Shown piece by piece: positions 1-7,332 of a stretch of DNA of 38,838 nucleotides. Origin of the DNA: a virus; IMG/VR virus record IMGVR_UViG_3300030098_002918, positions 1,549 through 40,386 of that record. The stretch is one strand, 5' to 3'. Position 1 is the first letter of the stretch. Each line of letters starts with the position of its first letter. The notes beneath the pieces are model-generated. The model did no database searches, was not told the DNA's origin, and worked only from the letters and a program-made list of their open reading frames with translations. Both the position numbers and the translations under genes were made by a program.

Positions 1-82
1 CGATGTAACTCCTGAGTTTGGTCCATCTGATTTAGATCTCTTACAAGAACACACTATGAAATACTTTGGGTTATCTCAATGA
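1..82 (+). CDS. 3' end of an unidentified CDS
   Basis: Only the last 26 codons lie in the window, starting in the frame of base 2 and ending in TGA at 80-82. The visible tail is acidic and Leu-rich (includes DLDLLQEH). The stop overlaps the next start as ATGA, the coupling used throughout this region. Function cannot be inferred from this fragment. Confidence 0.55.
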   Translation, partial: DVTPEFGPSDLDLLQEHTMKYFGLSQ

Positions 83-162
83 ATCTTCTACGTGCCTTAA
101 TGGAATCATGTTCCATTGTTGCAACTCTATTACTAATCAACTACTACTTAGGAGGTAATTAA
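79..162 (+). CDS. 27-aa putative membrane peptide
   Basis: A very short frame, ATGA-coupled to the gene before it and TAATG-coupled to the gene after it. The peptide has a single hydrophobic stretch (around SIVATLLLINYYLG, residues 12-25), enough for one membrane pass. The strict coupling on both sides is the main reason to call it a gene. Its 3' end carries the GGAGG that serves as ribosome binding site for the next gene, so it could be only a leader. No family recognised. Confidence 0.45.
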   Translation: MNLLRALMESCSIVATLLLINYYLGGN

Positions 163-536
163 TGAAAACATTAATTGATGATCTTGATTTTAAATCATTA
201 CATAAATATAAAAGTAGATCTCTTGTTGCTTGGGTTAAAAGAAACACAGGAACAAAACAACAACAACAAATTGTAAAAGAAACTCTTGAAAAAAGATCTA
301 AAGAAGTTTTAAATAAACTTAATAATCGGATACAAGTTAATTACAGATTAAGTGAATCTACTTCTAATAAAGTAAAAGATATTTGTGAAAAACTGAAAGT
401 TTCCAAAAATCTTCAATATTTAAATAAAAATATTTTAGAAGTAAAAGATGATTCATATTCTGTTGCACCAACTGAACTGATAAAAGCTATTGTTGAATCC
501 AAGGTTGAACACTTATGGCGTCTTACTCATGAATAA
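162..536 (+). CDS. hypothetical protein, 124 aa, Lys-rich
   Basis: Starts at the ATG overlapping the preceding stop (TAATG), with GGAGG about 7 bases upstream. The product is strongly basic and predicted helical, with many Lys and Asn residues and no Cys pair, signal peptide or membrane segment. The N-terminal half (RSLVAWVKRNTG, KQQQQ) and a later helix (KVKDICEKLKVSK) might suit nucleic-acid binding, but no family is recognised. It is second in the early-looking run of small coupled genes. Confidence 0.75.
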   Translation: MKTLIDDLDFKSLHKYKSRSLVAWVKRNTGTKQQQQIVKETLEKRSKEVLNKLNNRIQVNYRLSESTSNKVKDICEKLKVSKNLQYLNKNILEVKDDSYSVAPTELIKAIVESKVEHLWRLTHE

Positions 537-663
537 ACATGATGACCTTTGGGAGATCGTACAAAAAGATCATCCAAATTTAACTGATCAAGAGAGAAAA
601 CAAATCTTTCTTGATTGGTTATACCAAACACCTACTAAAAAGGAGGATTCCAATGAGCCATGA
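529..663 (+). CDS. hypothetical protein, 44 aa
   Basis: Overlaps the end of the preceding gene by 8 bases and the next gene by 11. The product begins MNKHDDLWEIVQKDHPNL and contains an acidic, Trp-bearing helix (QERKQIFLDWLYQ). The AAGGAGG at 640-646 inside its 3' end is the ribosome binding site of the next gene. Length, coupling and clean codon structure support a real gene. No family recognised. Confidence 0.6.
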   Translation: MNKHDDLWEIVQKDHPNLTDQERKQIFLDWLYQTPTKKEDSNEP

Positions 664-853
664 CGGTAATCGAGAACGTAAAAGAATGTTCTATGAAGAT
701 GCTCTTAAAGAGCTAGAAGATGAACATCCTGAAGTTGATCCTTCTGAAATAGAAGAACGCTTTGGTGATGAAGCAGTACAAAAAGCCGAAGATGCTTTCT
801 ATTACACATCTGAAGGTCATCCAACACTATCCGCAGCTGAGAGGAATCGTTAA
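653..853 (+). CDS. hypothetical acidic protein, 66 aa
   Basis: I place the start at the ATG at 653, preceded by AAGGAGG at 640-646, rather than at a TTG at 611. The product is highly charged and mostly acidic (DALKELEDEHPEVDPSEIEE), with helical character and a Tyr pair near the C-terminus. It ends in TAATG shared with the next start. Small acidic proteins are common among phage early proteins that bind host factors, but no family is recognised. Confidence 0.7.
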   Translation: MSHDGNRERKRMFYEDALKELEDEHPEVDPSEIEERFGDEAVQKAEDAFYYTSEGHPTLSAAERNR

Positions 854-1149
854 TGATTGATAAATTTTCTATTGAACAATGTATGAAAGACGTTGATCAT
901 ATGCTTGAAGCTTTTGATCATATTGAGAATACTCAAATGAAAAAAAATCTAAAGCAAAAAGATAGAGAACAAATAGCTATGTCTGTTCTTTATATACGTC
1001 TATACTTACGTGATGCACCTAAAGAAGATGCTGATCGTGTTTTAACTTTCATAGAAAAACGAGTTAAAAAAACTCTTCCAAAAGACTGGAGTCTTGAAAA
1101 AGAATTCAGACATCTTTCACTCTATAGAAACCTACGGGAACAAGACTAA
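853..1149 (+). CDS. hypothetical protein, 98 aa, helical
   Basis: Starts at an ATG overlapping the previous stop and ends overlapping the next start, both as TAATG. The product looks all-helical and charged (FSIEQCMKDVDHMLEAFDHI, then KNLKQKDREQIAMSVLYIRL). No metal-binding, membrane or signal motif is visible. No family recognised; it sits in the early-looking small-gene operon. Confidence 0.7.
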   Translation: MIDKFSIEQCMKDVDHMLEAFDHIENTQMKKNLKQKDREQIAMSVLYIRLYLRDAPKEDADRVLTFIEKRVKKTLPKDWSLEKEFRHLSLYRNLREQD

Positions 1150-1376
1150 TGCCTCAAATTACTCTTCGTTTTAACATCAATCCTGATGGAACTGTACAAG
1201 AAATTGTAGAAGGTGTATCAGGACATGGTTGTGATCTACTTACTAAACCTATAGAACAATCTTTAGGTGAAGTAGAACAACGTACTCATACAGCTGCTTT
1301 CTATGAAAAGATTAATTCCATACAGAATAGACATATAGAGTACTTAGAAGATCATGACTGGATTGGGTGTATTTGA
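1149..1376 (+). CDS. DUF2997-like protein, 75 aa
   Basis: The N-terminal half has the layout of the small DUF2997 family common in cyanobacteria: a strand (ITLRFNINPDGTVQEIVEG), a GHGCDLLT turn with a Cys at residue 28, then an IEQSLGEV helix. Biochemical function of the family is unknown to me. The C-terminal extension (residues 48-75) is charged. The gene is TAATG-coupled upstream and overlaps the next gene. Presence of a cyanobacterial family supports a cyanobacterial host. Confidence 0.65.
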   Translation: MPQITLRFNINPDGTVQEIVEGVSGHGCDLLTKPIEQSLGEVEQRTHTAAFYEKINSIQNRHIEYLEDHDWIGCI

Positions 1377-1497
1377 AATCATTGTTATACCAATACTATT
1401 CTTGGAGGAATTTGTTAAACGAATTCTGAGTGGAATCTATTTGTTATGGCAACGATTTGATCACTGGAATTTCAATCGTAAATTACCTAAATCATGA
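1354..1497 (+). CDS. 47-aa putative membrane protein
   Basis: Begins with a hydrophobic segment (MTGLGVFEIIVIPILFLEEF) followed by a basic, aromatic tail rich in Arg, Lys and Trp, so one membrane pass with a cytoplasmic basic tail is likely. It overlaps the preceding gene by 23 bases and is ATGA-coupled to the next. No family recognised. Confidence 0.55.
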   Translation: MTGLGVFEIIVIPILFLEEFVKRILSGIYLLWQRFDHWNFNRKLPKS

Positions 1498-1670
1498 CCA
1501 TTAAAACAAAAGATTACATGGTAGATGGCTGGGATAGATCTCCTCATCTAGCTGTACATCCTTATAAACGTGGCTCCAGACACAACCAAATTGGTATGTG
1601 GATTATGTGGTCTTACTACGTTTTAATCACTGGAATTATTCTGCGTTTAATCATTGTATTAAACCAATAG
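1494..1670 (+). CDS. 58-aa putative membrane protein
   Basis: ATGA-coupled to the gene before. The first 33 residues are hydrophilic and basic (YKRGSRHNQ), and the last 25 form a hydrophobic helix (IGMWIMWSYYVLITGIILRL). This suggests a tail-anchored inner-membrane protein. With the previous gene it forms a pair of tiny membrane proteins. Function unknown. Confidence 0.55.
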   Translation: MTIKTKDYMVDGWDRSPHLAVHPYKRGSRHNQIGMWIMWSYYVLITGIILRLIIVLNQ

Positions 1671-1676
1671 ATCCTC

Positions 1677-1910
1677 ATGGAATTTCATTCCTATCGGCAC
1701 ACTGATCTAGTACCAGATAAATGTGGCGTTGAGCCTGTTATCAAAGGCTGGGTGAATGAATTCAAGCCTTGGTACTATGACGGTAAAACTGTCTGGTGGG
1801 GGACTTTATATCCCCTTCGATCAGATGCAGAAGCTGCCGCATTAAAACTTCAACAACAACTTAAACCCAATGACAACAGCAACTCGCTCAAAAGCAAAAC
1901 CCAAGAGTAA
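1677..1910 (+). CDS. hypothetical protein, 77 aa
   Basis: A soluble aromatic-rich small protein (GWVNEFKPWYYDGKTVWWG at residues 22-40) with an Ala-rich helix (SDAEAAALKLQQQL). Its last 41 bases overlap the ArdC-like gene in another frame. There is no strong ribosome binding site, so the start is less certain. No family recognised. Confidence 0.6.
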   Translation: MEFHSYRHTDLVPDKCGVEPVIKGWVNEFKPWYYDGKTVWWGTLYPLRSDAEAAALKLQQQLKPNDNSNSLKSKTQE

Positions 1911-2808
1911 GAAACCTACTCCAGAAGAAAAATTAGTAGAAGAACTAATTACTCTGATGGAATCAGGTAAACAACCTTGGAGAAAAGAATGGGATTGTAC
2001 TAATGGAGGTAAACAACAAAACATCCTTAGTCATCACATCTATACAGGACAGAATCCTGCACTATTAGCTTTTTATCAAATGGCTAGAGGTTATCCTTTA
2101 CCTCTATGGGCTGGAGGAGGACAGATAAAAAGTAAAGGTTGGAAGATTCGTAAAGGATCTAAGGCTTGCTATATCTGTGTTCCTAGTAAATATCAAATTG
2201 AAGTAGAGAATACCTTTGGTGAAAAGATTAAAGAATCTAGAACTGGTGGATTCTATTTCTCTCCAATCTTTAATGTTAAAGATATAGAAGGAGAAGATAA
2301 AGATGAAATCATTGCTAGACACCAAGGAGAAGCTGAACAACCAAGACCTGAACCAGAACGTATGGAGAACTGCGAAAAAGTATTTGCAGAATACCACCGT
2401 CGAGAAACGTTAGAAACCCAATGGGCTGGTGAAAGAGCTTGTTACTCTCCCTCTCTAGACATAGTGACAATGCCTGAACGTAAGAAGTTCCATTCTGCTC
2501 ATGCCTTGTACTCCACCTGGGCGCACGAATTGGCTCATTCAACTGGTCATTCCAAGCGTCTTAAGCGTGATCTCACAGGCATGTATGGCTTGGATAAATA
2601 TGCAAAAGAAGAATTAATAGCTGAATTAGCTGCATATTTAATTTCAGATGAATTACAAATTAATTCAGATGAGAAAAATCATGCCAACTATTTACAGTCA
2701 TGGATTAAATGTCTACGCAAAGATCCTTCTATTTTAAAAGATTCTTTAAGACAAGCTAATGCTGCAAAAAATTATATCCTTCATCCAAAGGAGGAAAAGT
2801 CTTCATGA
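1870..2808 (+). CDS. ArdC-like antirestriction zinc metallopeptidase
   Basis: The 312-residue product has the two-part layout of ArdC/DUF1738 proteins. An N-terminal domain (about residues 18-130) carries the family's ESGKQPWRKEW and GYPLPLWAG-type motifs. A C-terminal zincin domain has HELAH at residues 219-223, followed by TGH and a downstream helix with Glu at 247, 248 and 252 that can supply the third zinc ligand. Established: ArdC-type proteins from mobile elements bind ssDNA and can protect incoming DNA from host restriction. Inferred: this phage uses it just after injection against host defence. The start at 1870 overlaps the preceding gene; the end is ATGA-coupled to the next. It is the only large gene in the left small-gene block. 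Confidence 0.82.
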   Translation: MTTATRSKAKPKSKKPTPEEKLVEELITLMESGKQPWRKEWDCTNGGKQQNILSHHIYTGQNPALLAFYQMARGYPLPLWAGGGQIKSKGWKIRKGSKACYICVPSKYQIEVENTFGEKIKESRTGGFYFSPIFNVKDIEGEDKDEIIARHQGEAEQPRPEPERMENCEKVFAEYHRRETLETQWAGERACYSPSLDIVTMPERKKFHSAHALYSTWAHELAHSTGHSKRLKRDLTGMYGLDKYAKEELIAELAAYLISDELQINSDEKNHANYLQSWIKCLRKDPSILKDSLRQANAAKNYILHPKEEKSS

Positions 2809-3089
2809 TTGGAGATCTAACTAAACGTAAAGAAAGACAAAATCGTTTTAAAAGAGTATTTATCCCTCGTATGAAATCTATTGGTAAAACAATTACTTTA
2901 ATTGGTAATTGTTCTAATAAAAATAATTACGAGTGGCATGAAGAAACAACAAAACGATCCTTTCTTCTTATAGCTCAAATCCTCTTAGCTCAAGCTAAAA
3001 AATTTGGGCTAAGTATGGAGCTTACATACAATGGACAACCTGTTCAAAGTATTAATCCTACTGATCCAGATCTTTTTAAATTGGAGTAA
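2805..3089 (+). CDS. hypothetical protein, 94 aa
   Basis: ATGA-coupled to the ArdC-like gene, with AAAGGAGG at its ribosome binding site. The N-terminus is very basic (LTKRKERQNRFKRVFIPR), followed by an alternating strand-like region and a helix (RSFLLIAQILLAQAKKFG). Tight linkage suggests joint expression with the antirestriction gene. No family recognised. Confidence 0.7.
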   Translation: MIGDLTKRKERQNRFKRVFIPRMKSIGKTITLIGNCSNKNNYEWHEETTKRSFLLIAQILLAQAKKFGLSMELTYNGQPVQSINPTDPDLFKLE

Positions 3090-3092
3090 CTC

Positions 3093-3254
3093 ATGATTAA
3101 AAAAGTTAGAGTAACACTACTTGTTCAAGTAGATACTGAAAACGATGAACGCTGTCCATCTGGTGATCCATTACAAGAAAATTGTGTACTAAACATGATT
3201 CATAATGGAGATTTTTTAGATCCAGTAGAAGTTCTAGATGTTCATTACATTTAA
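3093..3254 (+). CDS. hypothetical protein, 53 aa
   Basis: Three bases after the preceding stop, with GGAG just upstream. It has an N-terminal strand (IKKVRVTLLVQVDTEND) and an acidic remainder with two Cys residues. Strand content suggests a compact beta protein. No family recognised. Confidence 0.65.
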   Translation: MIKKVRVTLLVQVDTENDERCPSGDPLQENCVLNMIHNGDFLDPVEVLDVHYI

Positions 3255-3261
3255 TAATCTA

Positions 3262-3579
3262 ATGTCAACTCATAATCCAGTAGACATTGGTGATCTATGT
3301 ATAGATTGCTATGCCAAAGGTATCCATAAAGATACCACTAAAGAAGGTTTCGTTAATCGAATACCTGCTGAAACAGATGAATACTCTGGCTATATGTGTG
3401 GTCCTTGTGCTGAAGAATCCTCTGATTACATCGACAAGATGAAAGCAGAAGAAGATTTATTCACAATACTTAAAGACGCATTAGACAGATCTAAAGATTC
3501 TATATTGACTCATCCATGTGATGTAGATCAAATAGAAAACGTCTGTAGATTTTATGGCTATGAATCATTATTGGAGTAA
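3262..3579 (+). CDS. putative small zinc-binding protein, 105 aa
   Basis: I choose the ATG at 3262 over one at 3238, because the product then begins MSTHNPVDIGDLCIDCYAKG. There is a CxxC pair near residues 13-16 and a second (MCGPCAEE) near 52-55, so one zinc knuckle is likely. The C-terminal half is acidic and helical. A regulator or host-binding role is possible but unproven. Confidence 0.65.
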   Translation: MSTHNPVDIGDLCIDCYAKGIHKDTTKEGFVNRIPAETDEYSGYMCGPCAEESSDYIDKMKAEEDLFTILKDALDRSKDSILTHPCDVDQIENVCRFYGYESLLE

Positions 3580-3584
3580 TTTTA

Positions 3585-3752
3585 ATGCCAATGACTAAAC
3601 AAAAAGCCTTCTATGAATGGCTATCTAACTGTCCAGTTGAACTTGATTTTCAAATGAATTTTCCAAGTAAAAAAGATAACTGTACAGATGAAATGTATAT
3701 CTTCCGAGATATACCAAATACTGAACTAACTTTGATCAACGGATCTAAATAA
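3585..3752 (+). CDS. hypothetical protein, 55 aa
   Basis: Small soluble product starting MPMTKQKAFYEWLSNCPVE with two Cys residues. It follows the previous gene by five bases with a GGAG upstream. It ends the first run of coupled small genes, and a stem-loop follows at 3776. No family recognised. Confidence 0.6.
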   Translation: MPMTKQKAFYEWLSNCPVELDFQMNFPSKKDNCTDEMYIFRDIPNTELTLINGSK

Positions 3753-3775: not shown

Positions 3776-3807
3776 CACTAGGCTTTTCTAAAATGTAAGT
3801 CCTAGTG
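3776..3807 (+). promoter_or_regulatory. stem-loop before the 3816 gene
   Basis: CACTAGGCTT at 3776-3785 pairs with AAG plus CCTAGTG at 3797-3807, with one bulged T. The arrangement gives about 10 base pairs around a small loop, nine bases before the next ATG. No U-run follows, so a simple terminator is unlikely. An RNA processing site or translation-control hairpin fits better. The TGTAAGTC at 3794-3801 also occurs in the structured leader at 8291-8298. Confidence 0.4.
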
Positions 3808-3815
3808 TGTAGTCT

Positions 3816-4247
3816 ATGCACTATTACAATCCAACATTAATTAACTTACTTACTACAATGCAAATTGTTAAAGCAATTAAATCGTTAGTTCCTTCTATTG
3901 AATTAACAAATGATGAGAATAGAACTTCTCATTTAACTGGCACCTGGACTGATAACGCAGGTTACAGAGATGAACACAAACTTTCATTCAGATATGTACG
4001 CAACTCTGAAAAATTAGCTCGCATGCATGGGAAACCAAACATGAAAACTAAAGACATTGAATACACAGATGAATGGGGTAACAAGCATGTATTAACTGCA
4101 CAAAGAGCTAAAGAAATTATGCATTTAGCAGAAAGTATTTCTCAAGAAGCAAATGGATTAGCTGATCTTTATCATGAAGCAGGTATTTCACCAAAAGAAA
4201 TTCTTGGTGAATTAGATATGATTGATATTCAAGTTAATCCTGCTTAA
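3816..4247 (+). CDS. hypothetical protein, 143 aa
   Basis: Soluble, mixed alpha/beta product. The start could be the ATG at 3816 or the one at 3858 (MQIVKAIKSLVPSIEL), which would remove 14 residues. The centre is hydrophilic (DEHKLSFRYVRNSEKLARMHG), and the C-terminal third is helical and acidic (AKEIMHLAESISQEANGLAD). A stem-loop sits just upstream. No family recognised. Confidence 0.72.
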   Translation: MHYYNPTLINLLTTMQIVKAIKSLVPSIELTNDENRTSHLTGTWTDNAGYRDEHKLSFRYVRNSEKLARMHGKPNMKTKDIEYTDEWGNKHVLTAQRAKEIMHLAESISQEANGLADLYHEAGISPKEILGELDMIDIQVNPA

Positions 4248-4858: not shown

Positions 4859-4939
4859 ATGAATTGTCTTGATCTTATGGGGTATTTATCCCTAATCATT
4901 ATTCTTTATTCTTCTATTTACAAATTAATTAAAAAATGA
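4859..4939 (+). CDS. 26-aa putative membrane peptide
   Basis: Short frame with one hydrophobic helix (LMGYLSLIIILYSSIYK), ATGA-coupled to the zinc-ribbon gene at 4936. The coupling and membrane character are the only support. It may instead be a leader peptide for the downstream regulator. An in-frame GTG at 4742 would make a longer product, but that start overlaps the antisense gene and looks less likely. Confidence 0.35.
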   Translation: MNCLDLMGYLSLIIILYSSIYKLIKK

Positions 4940-5244
4940 AATGCCCTAAATGTAAATCTAAAAACACTAGAGTTTCTTCTGTTGATCCACATCCTCTTGA
5001 GGATTTTACTAAACGTTATTGTAGATGTTTAGATTGTGCTGAACGTTTCACTACTATCGAAAAGTATTTAGATACAGCACATAACCCAGGAAGAAAGAAA
5101 AATAGTTTCATATTGAATAGTTATCAATGCCAAATGATTAAAAGAAATAAATATATGTTATCTAATAGTGAATGGGCAGCTATTTATAAAGTTTCTCTTT
5201 CAACCATAGTTACAGCAAAAACAAAATTTCCATCAACTAATTAG
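4936..5244 (+). CDS. NrdR-like zinc-ribbon protein, 102 aa
   Basis: The N-terminus has the zinc ribbon of NrdR-type regulators: MKCPKCKSKNTRV, then RYCRCLDCAERFTTIEKY, giving two CxxC pairs and the RFTT-x-E signature near residues 38-43. The ATP-cone domain of true NrdR is absent. Instead the last 50 residues are basic with a possible helix-turn-helix (MLSNSEWAAIYKVSLSTIVT). Inferred role: a small DNA-binding transcription factor just ahead of the polymerase and SSB genes. It could also be an unrelated zinc-ribbon DNA binder. Confidence 0.72.
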   Translation: MKCPKCKSKNTRVSSVDPHPLEDFTKRYCRCLDCAERFTTIEKYLDTAHNPGRKKNSFILNSYQCQMIKRNKYMLSNSEWAAIYKVSLSTIVTAKTKFPSTN

Positions 5245-5288: not shown

Positions 5289-5531
5289 ATGAAAAAATCA
5301 ACAATGTCTTACGTAATCGCTTGTTGGAAGAGGGGTGTTCCGCATGGAATACAAGTGACTAATAATAAGTTCACACTCGTACCACTTGATTCACAGACAA
5401 ATGTATCTAAACTATTTAACAATCCGCATCGAACTCAGATGCAAAAATTCTTGAACTGGATTAAAGAGAATGACAAAGAACTTAAGCATGAGGAATTCTC
5501 AATTCAAGACTACGGCAGATTCAGAAGATGA
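5289..5531 (+). CDS. hypothetical protein, 80 aa, upstream of DNA polymerase
   Basis: Basic soluble product with a Trp-bearing start (MSYVIACWKRGVPHG from residue 6) and a charged C-terminus. It overlaps the polymerase gene by up to 62 bases, so the two are probably translated together. An accessory role in replication is possible from position only. No family recognised. Confidence 0.65.
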   Translation: MKKSTMSYVIACWKRGVPHGIQVTNNKFTLVPLDSQTNVSKLFNNPHRTQMQKFLNWIKENDKELKHEEFSIQDYGRFRR

Positions 5532-7332
5532 ATCCTGGCTTATATTTGATTTAGAATCTGATGGCTTATATGATGACGTTTCAAAAATCCATTGCCTGGT
5601 TATTTATGACATTCAATCAGGAAACACTTTCAGCTATGGCCCTGATGCTATTGATAATGCTATTAGTCATCTGGACTCCGCTGATGTTTTAATCGGTCAT
5701 AACATACTCTTTTATGACATTCCAGTTCTTAAAAAATTACATGGAACTGATTTCAAAGCAAGAGTAATAGATACGCTGATATGTACACGTCTTATCTGGC
5801 CTAAAGAAACGCTTTATGACCTTGACGAAGAACAATATCAGGAAGTTCCACCGAAGCTCAAAGGTTCTGCTTCACTTAAGGCATGGGGCTATCGACTTGC
5901 AGATCACAAGATTGAGTTCCAAGATTTCACCGAGTACTCCCAGGAAATGCTCGACTACTGCATCCAAGATGTCAGAGTTACAGAAAAATTATGGAATCAT
6001 ATTATCAATCAAAAGTATCCTGAGTCTGCTCTGGTTCTTGAACATGACTTCGCTCAAAAGATCAATGAACAAATTAGGACAGGCATTCCATTCGATGTGG
6101 ACAGATGTCTTGATCTTGTGGATGATCTCAGAGGGAAGAAAGAAAAATTGGAGAATGAATTAAAAACATTATTCCCTCCCTTAAAACGTTCTGAAATTTT
6201 TACTCCTAAAGTAAATAATAAGAAACGAGGTTATGTAAAAGGCGTTCCATTTGAAAAAGTAAGTTATGACGAATTCAATCCAGGATCACGTAAACAAATT
6301 ATTGAACGCTTATTCAATAAGTACCAATGGGTACCAGAAGGAAAAACTGAGAAAGGAAATCCAAAACTTGATGATGATGTCCTCGAAAAACTTCCCTTCC
6401 CAGAAGCTAAAACACTGGGAGAATACATGCTCATTAATAAGCGATTAGGACAAATAGCTGATGGTAATAATGCGTGGTTGAAATTAGTTAATAACGATAC
6501 AGGAAGAATTCATGGAGATGTAATTACTAATGGAACAATCACAGGACGATGTAGCCATCGCAATCCCAACTGCTCCCAGGTAGTAGCCAACAATAAGCCT
6601 TATGGTAAACAATGTCGTTCACTATTCCATGCACCTTACGATTGGGATCTAATCGGTGTAGATGCTAAAGCTTTAGAACTTCGTTGTCTCGCAGGGTACT
6701 TGGCTCTATGGGATGAAGGTGAATACGCTGCCATGGTTATTAACCCAGAGGTAGACATACATACTTATAATCAAGAGCAATTTGGTGTTGCTAATCGAGA
6801 TATAAGTAAACGTCTACTTTATGGAATGTTGTATGGCTGTGGTGCAGCTAAAGCAGGTACTATTATTGATCCCAATGAAAAGAATGAAACCAAATTAAAA
6901 CGTATGGGAAGAGATGCAATTAATGGTTTTATGAAAGGTGTACCTGCACTTAAAAAGTTAAAAGATCAAATTGAAGAAACAATTAGTAACCGTGGTTATT
7001 TAATCGGTTTAGATAGACGTATCCTTCACTGTCGCTCTTCTTTTAAAGGACTTAATGTTTTGTTGCAATCTGCTGGTGGCATATTAATGAAACAAGTTGT
7101 TGTAAACATTCACAACAATATTGAAAATAACTTAAATATGCCTCATGGTAATAATTGGCAACAGTTATTAATGATCCATGACGAAGTACAATTGACTTGT
7201 AACAAAAAGTATACAGAAAAAATAAGAGAACAAGCAATGGCAGCCTTCCCTCAAGCACAAGAGTTCTTTAACTTTAGATGCAAAATTGAAGGTGATTCAT
7301 GTATAGGTAGCACCTGGGCAGAAACGCATTAG
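5470..7332 (+). CDS. T7-like family A DNA polymerase with 3'-5' exonuclease
   Basis: Replicative DNA polymerase of about 620 residues. The exonuclease domain shows D27-x-E29 (FDLESDGL), the GHN...YD motif near residue 80 and YCIQD further on. The polymerase domain has motif A GVDAKALELR with Asp398, motif B RDISKRLLYG starting at Arg443, and motif C IHDE with His570, Asp571 and Glu572. Spacing and wording (ALELRCLA, LLQSAGG, NFRCKIEG) follow phage T7 polymerase, though it is shorter than T7's roughly 700 residues. Starts at 5470 and 5488 (MRNSQFK) are both possible; neither has a strong ribosome binding site. It lies directly before the SSB gene, with a stem-loop between. Confidence 0.92.
   Translation: MTKNLSMRNSQFKTTADSEDESWLIFDLESDGLYDDVSKIHCLVIYDIQSGNTFSYGPDAIDNAISHLDSADVLIGHNILFYDIPVLKKLHGTDFKARVIDTLICTRLIWPKETLYDLDEEQYQEVPPKLKGSASLKAWGYRLADHKIEFQDFTEYSQEMLDYCIQDVRVTEKLWNHIINQKYPESALVLEHDFAQKINEQIRTGIPFDVDRCLDLVDDLRGKKEKLENELKTLFPPLKRSEIFTPKVNNKKRGYVKGVPFEKVSYDEFNPGSRKQIIERLFNKYQWVPEGKTEKGNPKLDDDVLEKLPFPEAKTLGEYMLINKRLGQIADGNNAWLKLVNNDTGRIHGDVITNGTITGRCSHRNPNCSQVVANNKPYGKQCRSLFHAPYDWDLIGVDAKALELRCLAGYLALWDEGEYAAMVINPEVDIHTYNQEQFGVANRDISKRLLYGMLYGCGAAKAGTIIDPNEKNETKLKRMGRDAINGFMKGVPALKKLKDQIEETISNRGYLIGLDRRILHCRSSFKGLNVLLQSAGGILMKQVVVNIHNNIENNLNMPHGNNWQQLLMIHDEVQLTCNKKYTEKIREQAMAAFPQAQEFFNFRCKIEGDSCIGSTWAETH

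Follow-up and report, generated by a model that had tools for sequence, protein, structure and literature searches.

We analyzed a 38,838-nucleotide stretch of viral DNA (here the window; bases 1549-40386 of the 40,386-base record IMGVR_UViG_3300030098_002918) that carries, close to its start, a gene for an ArdC-like protein surrounded by very small genes (positions 162-3752). This block is a clade-specific accessory slot, not a fixed operon, and lies upstream of the replication genes. Within the group of Synechococcus phage S-EIV1, to which the virus belongs, ArdC and a PcfJ-like protein, the latter mostly accompanied by tRNA-Leu(UAA), were exchanged at this locus in one event. ArdC probably shields the phage DNA from host restriction, the block being an accessory slot of an S-EIV1-like cyanophage.

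The virus was placed by its DNA polymerase A, which is 64.6% identical to that of S-EIV1, while the next annotated phage reached 44.8%. Both viruses have a common order of flanking genes (F15/F28, slot, g14, g15, g16, g17, and polymerase), but S-EIV1 has PcfJ and neither ArdC nor DUF2997, whereas the window virus has ArdC and DUF2997 and no PcfJ. Given the kinship of the polymerase to S-EIV1 and the fact that all the phage records bearing relatives of g10 are cyanophages (17 of 17), the host is likely a cyanobacterium. A marine habitat is suggested by the low G+C content and the kin of the virus rather than by sample data.

The slot is delimited by conserved flanks (left, F15/F28; right, g14), and its contents vary among the records. 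Searching whole records, we found ArdC in the window's own record and in 9 of 34 relatives (8 above the cut-off), and in none of the 24 remaining polymerase relatives. Within this ArdC clade, g8 followed by ArdC was seen in all eight records showing that side, g12 changes sides of ArdC between the window virus and G003, DUF2997 is missing in G003 and G005 (which retain ArdC and g8), and other small open reading frames (ORFs) come and go. One record, G010, starts within ArdC. In another, G008, Pfam matched not the clade-type ArdC, which is truncated by the contig end, but a distinct second ArdC-like protein (L052:967-1875, minus strand) with ArdcN joined to Peptidase_M78.

In relatives without ArdC, the slot holds a protein of ca. 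570 to 620 amino acids (aa) with a C-terminal PcfJ domain (PF14284). It was detected in 18 of the 35 records searched (17 above the cut-off) and in none of the 11 records G000 to G010, which sets the ArdC clade apart from the PcfJ type. The polymerase relatives with neither gene (G011 and G020 to G024) are on contigs that end 0.5 to 4.2 kb upstream of the polymerase. In a wider scan, we considered the best 80 of 114 PcfJ loci, some of which nearly duplicate one another or records already counted. F28/D23 was found within 1.5 kb upstream of PcfJ in 75 of these 80 loci, g14 within 1.5 kb downstream in 70, and both flanks in 68, while ArdC appeared in the examined sequence of none. Thus, the PcfJ-like protein of S-EIV1 and its relatives occupies the same slot, from F28/D23 to g14, as ArdC, although it belongs to a different Pfam family, and no record or locus among those examined carried the two together. 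The order is broken in G019, where g14 precedes PcfJ. Among the PcfJ loci L186 to L265, 72 have g14 anywhere downstream, and in 64 of these a tRNA-Leu(UAA) gene lies between PcfJ and g14, at the right boundary of the slot; it was absent from all 15 ArdC-clade loci scanned (several of them from the same records) and was not found in S-EIV1 itself or in two sister records.

In a polymerase tree of 30 rows, the seven ArdC rows formed a single clade (100/100), which midpoint rooting placed within the PcfJ rows. Most likely, ArdC was acquired by the ancestor of the clade at a position that the cousins fill with the PcfJ-like protein, usually with tRNA-Leu(UAA). The nearest outside kin in the ArdC tree were L107 and L115 (98/86), from viruses with a 41 to 43% identical polymerase in which ArdC likewise lies upstream of D18 and Thy1, and it is plausible that the clade's ArdC derived from this neighboring group.

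The ArdC gene itself is ordinary and of an already known kind. Its identification in the initial annotation was borne out by an N-terminal ArdcN domain (PF08401, E 1.2e-17, 64.7 bits against a cut-off of 22.6), a C-terminal zincin domain (MPTase-PolyVal, PF18818, E 1.2e-35, 122.7 bits), and an alignment with the solved ArdC (PDB 6i89 and 6sna) over residues 22 to 300 (E 7e-25). The metal ligands and their neighbors (H219, E220, H223, E247, E248, and Y274) are invariant across ten viral ArdCs and correspond to H201, E202, H205, E228, E229, and Y255 of the ArdC of plasmid R388, as given in PMC7213743. The two proteins share both domains, the length class, the HExxH and EE motifs, and the Tyr, but that of R388 comes from a conjugative plasmid and the one described here from a double-stranded DNA tailed phage. 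The viral gene is under purifying selection (ω of 0 to 0.46 in nine comparisons) and, being full-length with intact metal-site residues, looks functional. The polyvalent proteins described in PMC5512222 also combine ArdC-N and MPTase; they are longer multidomain chains, whereas the window ArdC has those two domains only. Two-domain ArdCs amid small genes are likewise present in the marine phages SS120-1, S38-C3, P-SCSP2, and HTVC011P (recorded as Autographiviridae), but with 31 to 40% identity and different neighbors. In three of these four annotated phages (SS120-1, P-SCSP2, and HTVC011P), ArdC lies between the genes for terminase and RNA polymerase, a position that spans the record ends in P-SCSP2 and HTVC011P; the S38-C3 gene shares an opposite-strand block with an integrase. 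The literature searched contained no paper joining anti-restriction, ArdC, and cyanophage; ArdC and PcfJ co-occurred in one paper, in a table of transferred genes.

To assess restriction in this lineage, sites were counted in pooled partial sequence of nine ArdC-clade records, with G000 omitted as a near copy of G001. In a Markov test, CCGG was observed once versus 71.0 expected, CGCG twice versus 40.4, and GCGC 26 times versus 84.5, while non-palindromic 4-mers of G+C only, used as controls, stood at 1.29 to 1.55 times expectation. Several 6-base palindromes were also depleted, such as GAGCTC (1 versus 30.8) and CCTAGG (0 versus 17.5). A codon-shuffle control lowered the non-palindromic controls too (in the window, 65 seen versus 106.4) and therefore somewhat overstates the depletion. 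In six PcfJ records, the observed and expected counts were 704 and 726 for CCGG and 834 and 852 for GCGC; two sister PcfJ records were depleted in GCGC (0 versus 20.9) and CGCG (1 versus 12.2) but retained CCGG (55 versus 50.1). The lineage is thus under restriction pressure, and carrying ArdC has not spared it the loss of sites. The idea that ArdC relaxes site avoidance found no support, the ArdC clade being strongly depleted. Both features could be reconciled, which we only infer, if site loss served against type II enzymes and ArdC against type I, its known in vivo target. As a separate observation, the ORFs of the ArdC-bearing pelagiphage HTVC011P contain no GATC (73.6 expected) and no TCGA (33.0 expected).

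The tested relative, the ArdC of R388, counters HsdRMS restriction and has a single-stranded DNA-binding domain, its protease being dispensable for that effect (PMC7213743). Building on what is observed in the window virus (gene content, intact residues, the slot, and the exchange), we propose that ArdC would be made after the phage DNA enters, that its N-terminal domain would bind exposed single-stranded stretches of this DNA, and that such binding would shield it against host restriction; the apparently intact metallopeptidase site may serve a second role. Several points weigh against this proposal. The known in vivo case of ArdC is conjugation, in which DNA enters single-stranded. Within the S-EIV1 group, depletion is strongest in the ArdC clade, although site loss would be expected to relax if all restriction were relieved by ArdC. 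Nor do depletion and ArdC go together in other phages: CCGG, GCGC, and CGCG are missing from the ORFs of the first 50 kb of P-SSM7, and CCGG from those of MED4-184 (neither phage was profile-searched for ArdC), while in the ArdC-bearing S38-C3 the three sites are hardly depleted. The mutual exclusion of ArdC and PcfJ is statistically weak, since the tree shows a single exchange, and the clades also differ upstream of the polymerase, where Thy1, gp88, and D18 were not seen in the ArdC clade.

A different role would be that of a replication or processing factor, in which ArdC binds single-stranded DNA and its peptidase acts on phage or host proteins, anti-restriction not being its job. The position upstream of the replication genes fits this role, as do the conservation of peptidase residues that the R388 protein does without in anti-restriction and the continued dependence of the clade on the loss of restriction sites. 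Nevertheless, the tested relative is an anti-restriction protein, and the absence of ArdC from the 24 other polymerase relatives searched indicates that it is not required for this type of replication, so we regard such a role as rather unlikely.

A similar weighing applies to the small genes, which the initial annotation had described as a dense, coupled block and taken for an early one, of a kind that often holds host-takeover and anti-defense factors. The layout was as described: thirteen plus-strand ORFs of 44 to 312 aa run head to tail, ArdC being the sole large one, with junctions of -8, -11, -1, -1, -23, -4, +6, -41, -4, +3, +7, and +5 nucleotides, i.e., overlaps at 8 of 12 and spacers of 3 to 7 nucleotides at the remaining four, and the block ends 63 nucleotides before g14. 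The acidic (g2, g3, g5, g11, g12, and g13; isoelectric points of 4.4 to 4.8), membrane-like (g6 and g7), and six-cysteine (g12) proteins were also there. The description of such proteins as lacking any family was right in part, g5 being a DUF2997 protein (PF11211, E 2.9e-16) and g10 matching phrog_35258. That the tiny frames arose by chance, with ArdC as the sole gene, is very improbable. It is true that no diverged relative turned up for g1, g4, and g11, their only match being G001 (99.96% identical over 6,626 bases and thus uninformative on selection). But diverged orthologues were found for 10 of the 13 genes (g2, g3, g5 to g8, ArdC, g10, g12, and g13), these ten are under purifying selection (ratios of nonsynonymous to synonymous substitution rates [dN/dS] of 0 to 0.77 wherever computable, with g6 and g7 as the most constrained tiny genes), and the ORFs are contiguous and overlapping; for nine tiny ORFs, chance is already refuted.

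As for defense, the part of that claim that stood is ArdC in an accessory slot. PADLOC models gave no match at E 0.01 to the 10 of the 13 block proteins that were scanned (all but g6, g11, and g13), and NCBIfam gave just two matches, both below threshold. The gene g8, the one most closely linked to ArdC in the block and with a poor predicted model (predicted local distance difference test [pLDDT] of 64.3), was rejected as a dedicated partner of ArdC, since 17 of 25 g8 loci had no ArdC in the examined sequence, some of which ends ca. 0.5 to 1.2 kb downstream. Among 78 other ArdC loci, in other phages, weak g2/g3-like matches lay downstream of ArdC in seven and g12-like matches in three; all were short and confounded by habitat. 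An anti-defense reading of the tiny genes is therefore a fair guess and not a result. The block might instead be mostly a set for takeover of host physiology (DUF2997 and small membrane proteins), with ArdC as one passenger. In cyanobacteria, DUF2997 is reported to cluster with ycf35 (DUF1257) and the ferredoxin gene fed7 (PMC4284462), because of which a host-physiology role for g5 seems as likely as anti-defense. A search for a cellular DUF2997 near the viral one gave 46 stretches in genome contigs that matched the pattern and no relative. The membrane-like character of g6 and g7, the most conserved tiny genes, and the independence of g8 from ArdC in other viruses agree with a takeover set, but G003 and G005 keep ArdC and g8 without DUF2997, and for the block as a whole we find it unlikely.

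More speculatively, the PcfJ-like protein with tRNA-Leu(UAA) might be the functional counterpart of ArdC, namely a so far unrecognized counter-defense or DNA-entry module that phages and conjugative plasmids have in common and that was swapped for ArdC at one locus; we consider this a long shot. PcfJ-like proteins are found in phages and, judging by their name family, on plasmids, and to our knowledge have no known function. The predicted PcfJ model (pLDDT of 83.0) had no Foldseek match in the PDB at an E value of ≤0.001 (best, 0.4), and viral-library matches with telling names were mostly other PcfJ-like proteins. In a bolder form, PcfJ would act on or with the adjacent tRNA: there is a weak resemblance of its modeled C-terminal part to enzymes of the GNAT fold, one of them a tRNA-dependent transferase (Z ≤6.8, a value graded by the tool as possibly only a common arrangement).

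The features of the slot and its flanks are listed in Table 1. The remainder of F15 precedes the window, beyond a gap of 10 N. Just 5' of g14, at the place of the tRNA gene in most PcfJ relatives, is a conserved element (CTAGG...TAAAATGTAAGTCCTAGTGTG) that could be a promoter or an RNA hairpin; a scan for promoters and terminators gave no signal (20 promoter-like sites versus 33.8 expected and 3 terminators versus 3.8 expected). Further downstream, g16 (window 4936-5244) encodes an NrdR-like zinc ribbon (PF22811, E 1.8e-8). Among the PcfJ relatives, G019 has a C5-cytosine DNA methylase between PcfJ and the polymerase (L026:5710-6786; PF00145, E 4e-50), and PcfJ of G033 (L042:1968-3670) is split into two ORFs of 285 and 228 aa, compared with one of 568 aa in close relatives. 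The polymerase ORF of G029 (L038:8001-10652; 886 aa) contains an in-frame insert of ca. 265 aa without Pfam match, possibly an intein.

Table 1. Features of the accessory slot and its surroundings (window positions).
Feature	Position	Strand	Description
F15, C-terminal end	1..82	+	Left flank of slot; from translation and intact G001 copy; homologues also left of PcfJ in relatives
g1	162..536	+	124 aa, basic; only in window virus and near-identical G001
g2	529..663	+	44 aa, acidic; relatives in ArdC clade
g3	653..853	+	66 aa, acidic; orthologue in G003 (70%)
g4	853..1149	+	98 aa; no relative except G001
g5	1149..1376	+	75 aa; DUF2997 (PF11211)
g6	1354..1497	+	47 aa, membrane-like; strongly conserved, dN/dS 0.02-0.12
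g7	1494..1670	+	58 aa, membrane-like; strongly conserved, dN/dS 0.02-0.06 (three close relatives), 0.24 (G003)
g8	1677..1910	+	77 aa; upstream of ArdC and overlapping it, 8/8 clade records showing that side
ArdC	1870..2808	+	312 aa; single-stranded DNA-binding-type N-terminal domain and zincin metallopeptidase domain
g10	2805..3089	+	94 aa; phrog_35258; relatives in 17 cyanophage records
g11	3093..3254	+	53 aa; no relative except G001
g12	3262..3579	+	105 aa, acidic, six Cys; downstream of ArdC here, upstream in G003
g13	3585..3752	+	55 aa, acidic
Intergenic element	3776..3810	+	Conserved inverted repeat CACTAGG...CCTAGTG; aligned in 7 ArdC-clade records
g14	3816..4247	+	Right flank of slot; retained in PcfJ relatives
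DNA polymerase A	5470..7332	+	Used for placing the virus in the S-EIV1 group

The most useful outcome of this analysis is the exchange of ArdC and PcfJ, the latter in most cases with tRNA-Leu(UAA). Should PcfJ indeed take the place of ArdC at one locus, assays of anti-restriction and related activities would be a direct and cheap test of its function. The small conserved membrane proteins g6 and g7 and the viral DUF2997 provide material for study in cyanobacteria, and one lineage separates two answers to restriction, site loss and ArdC.

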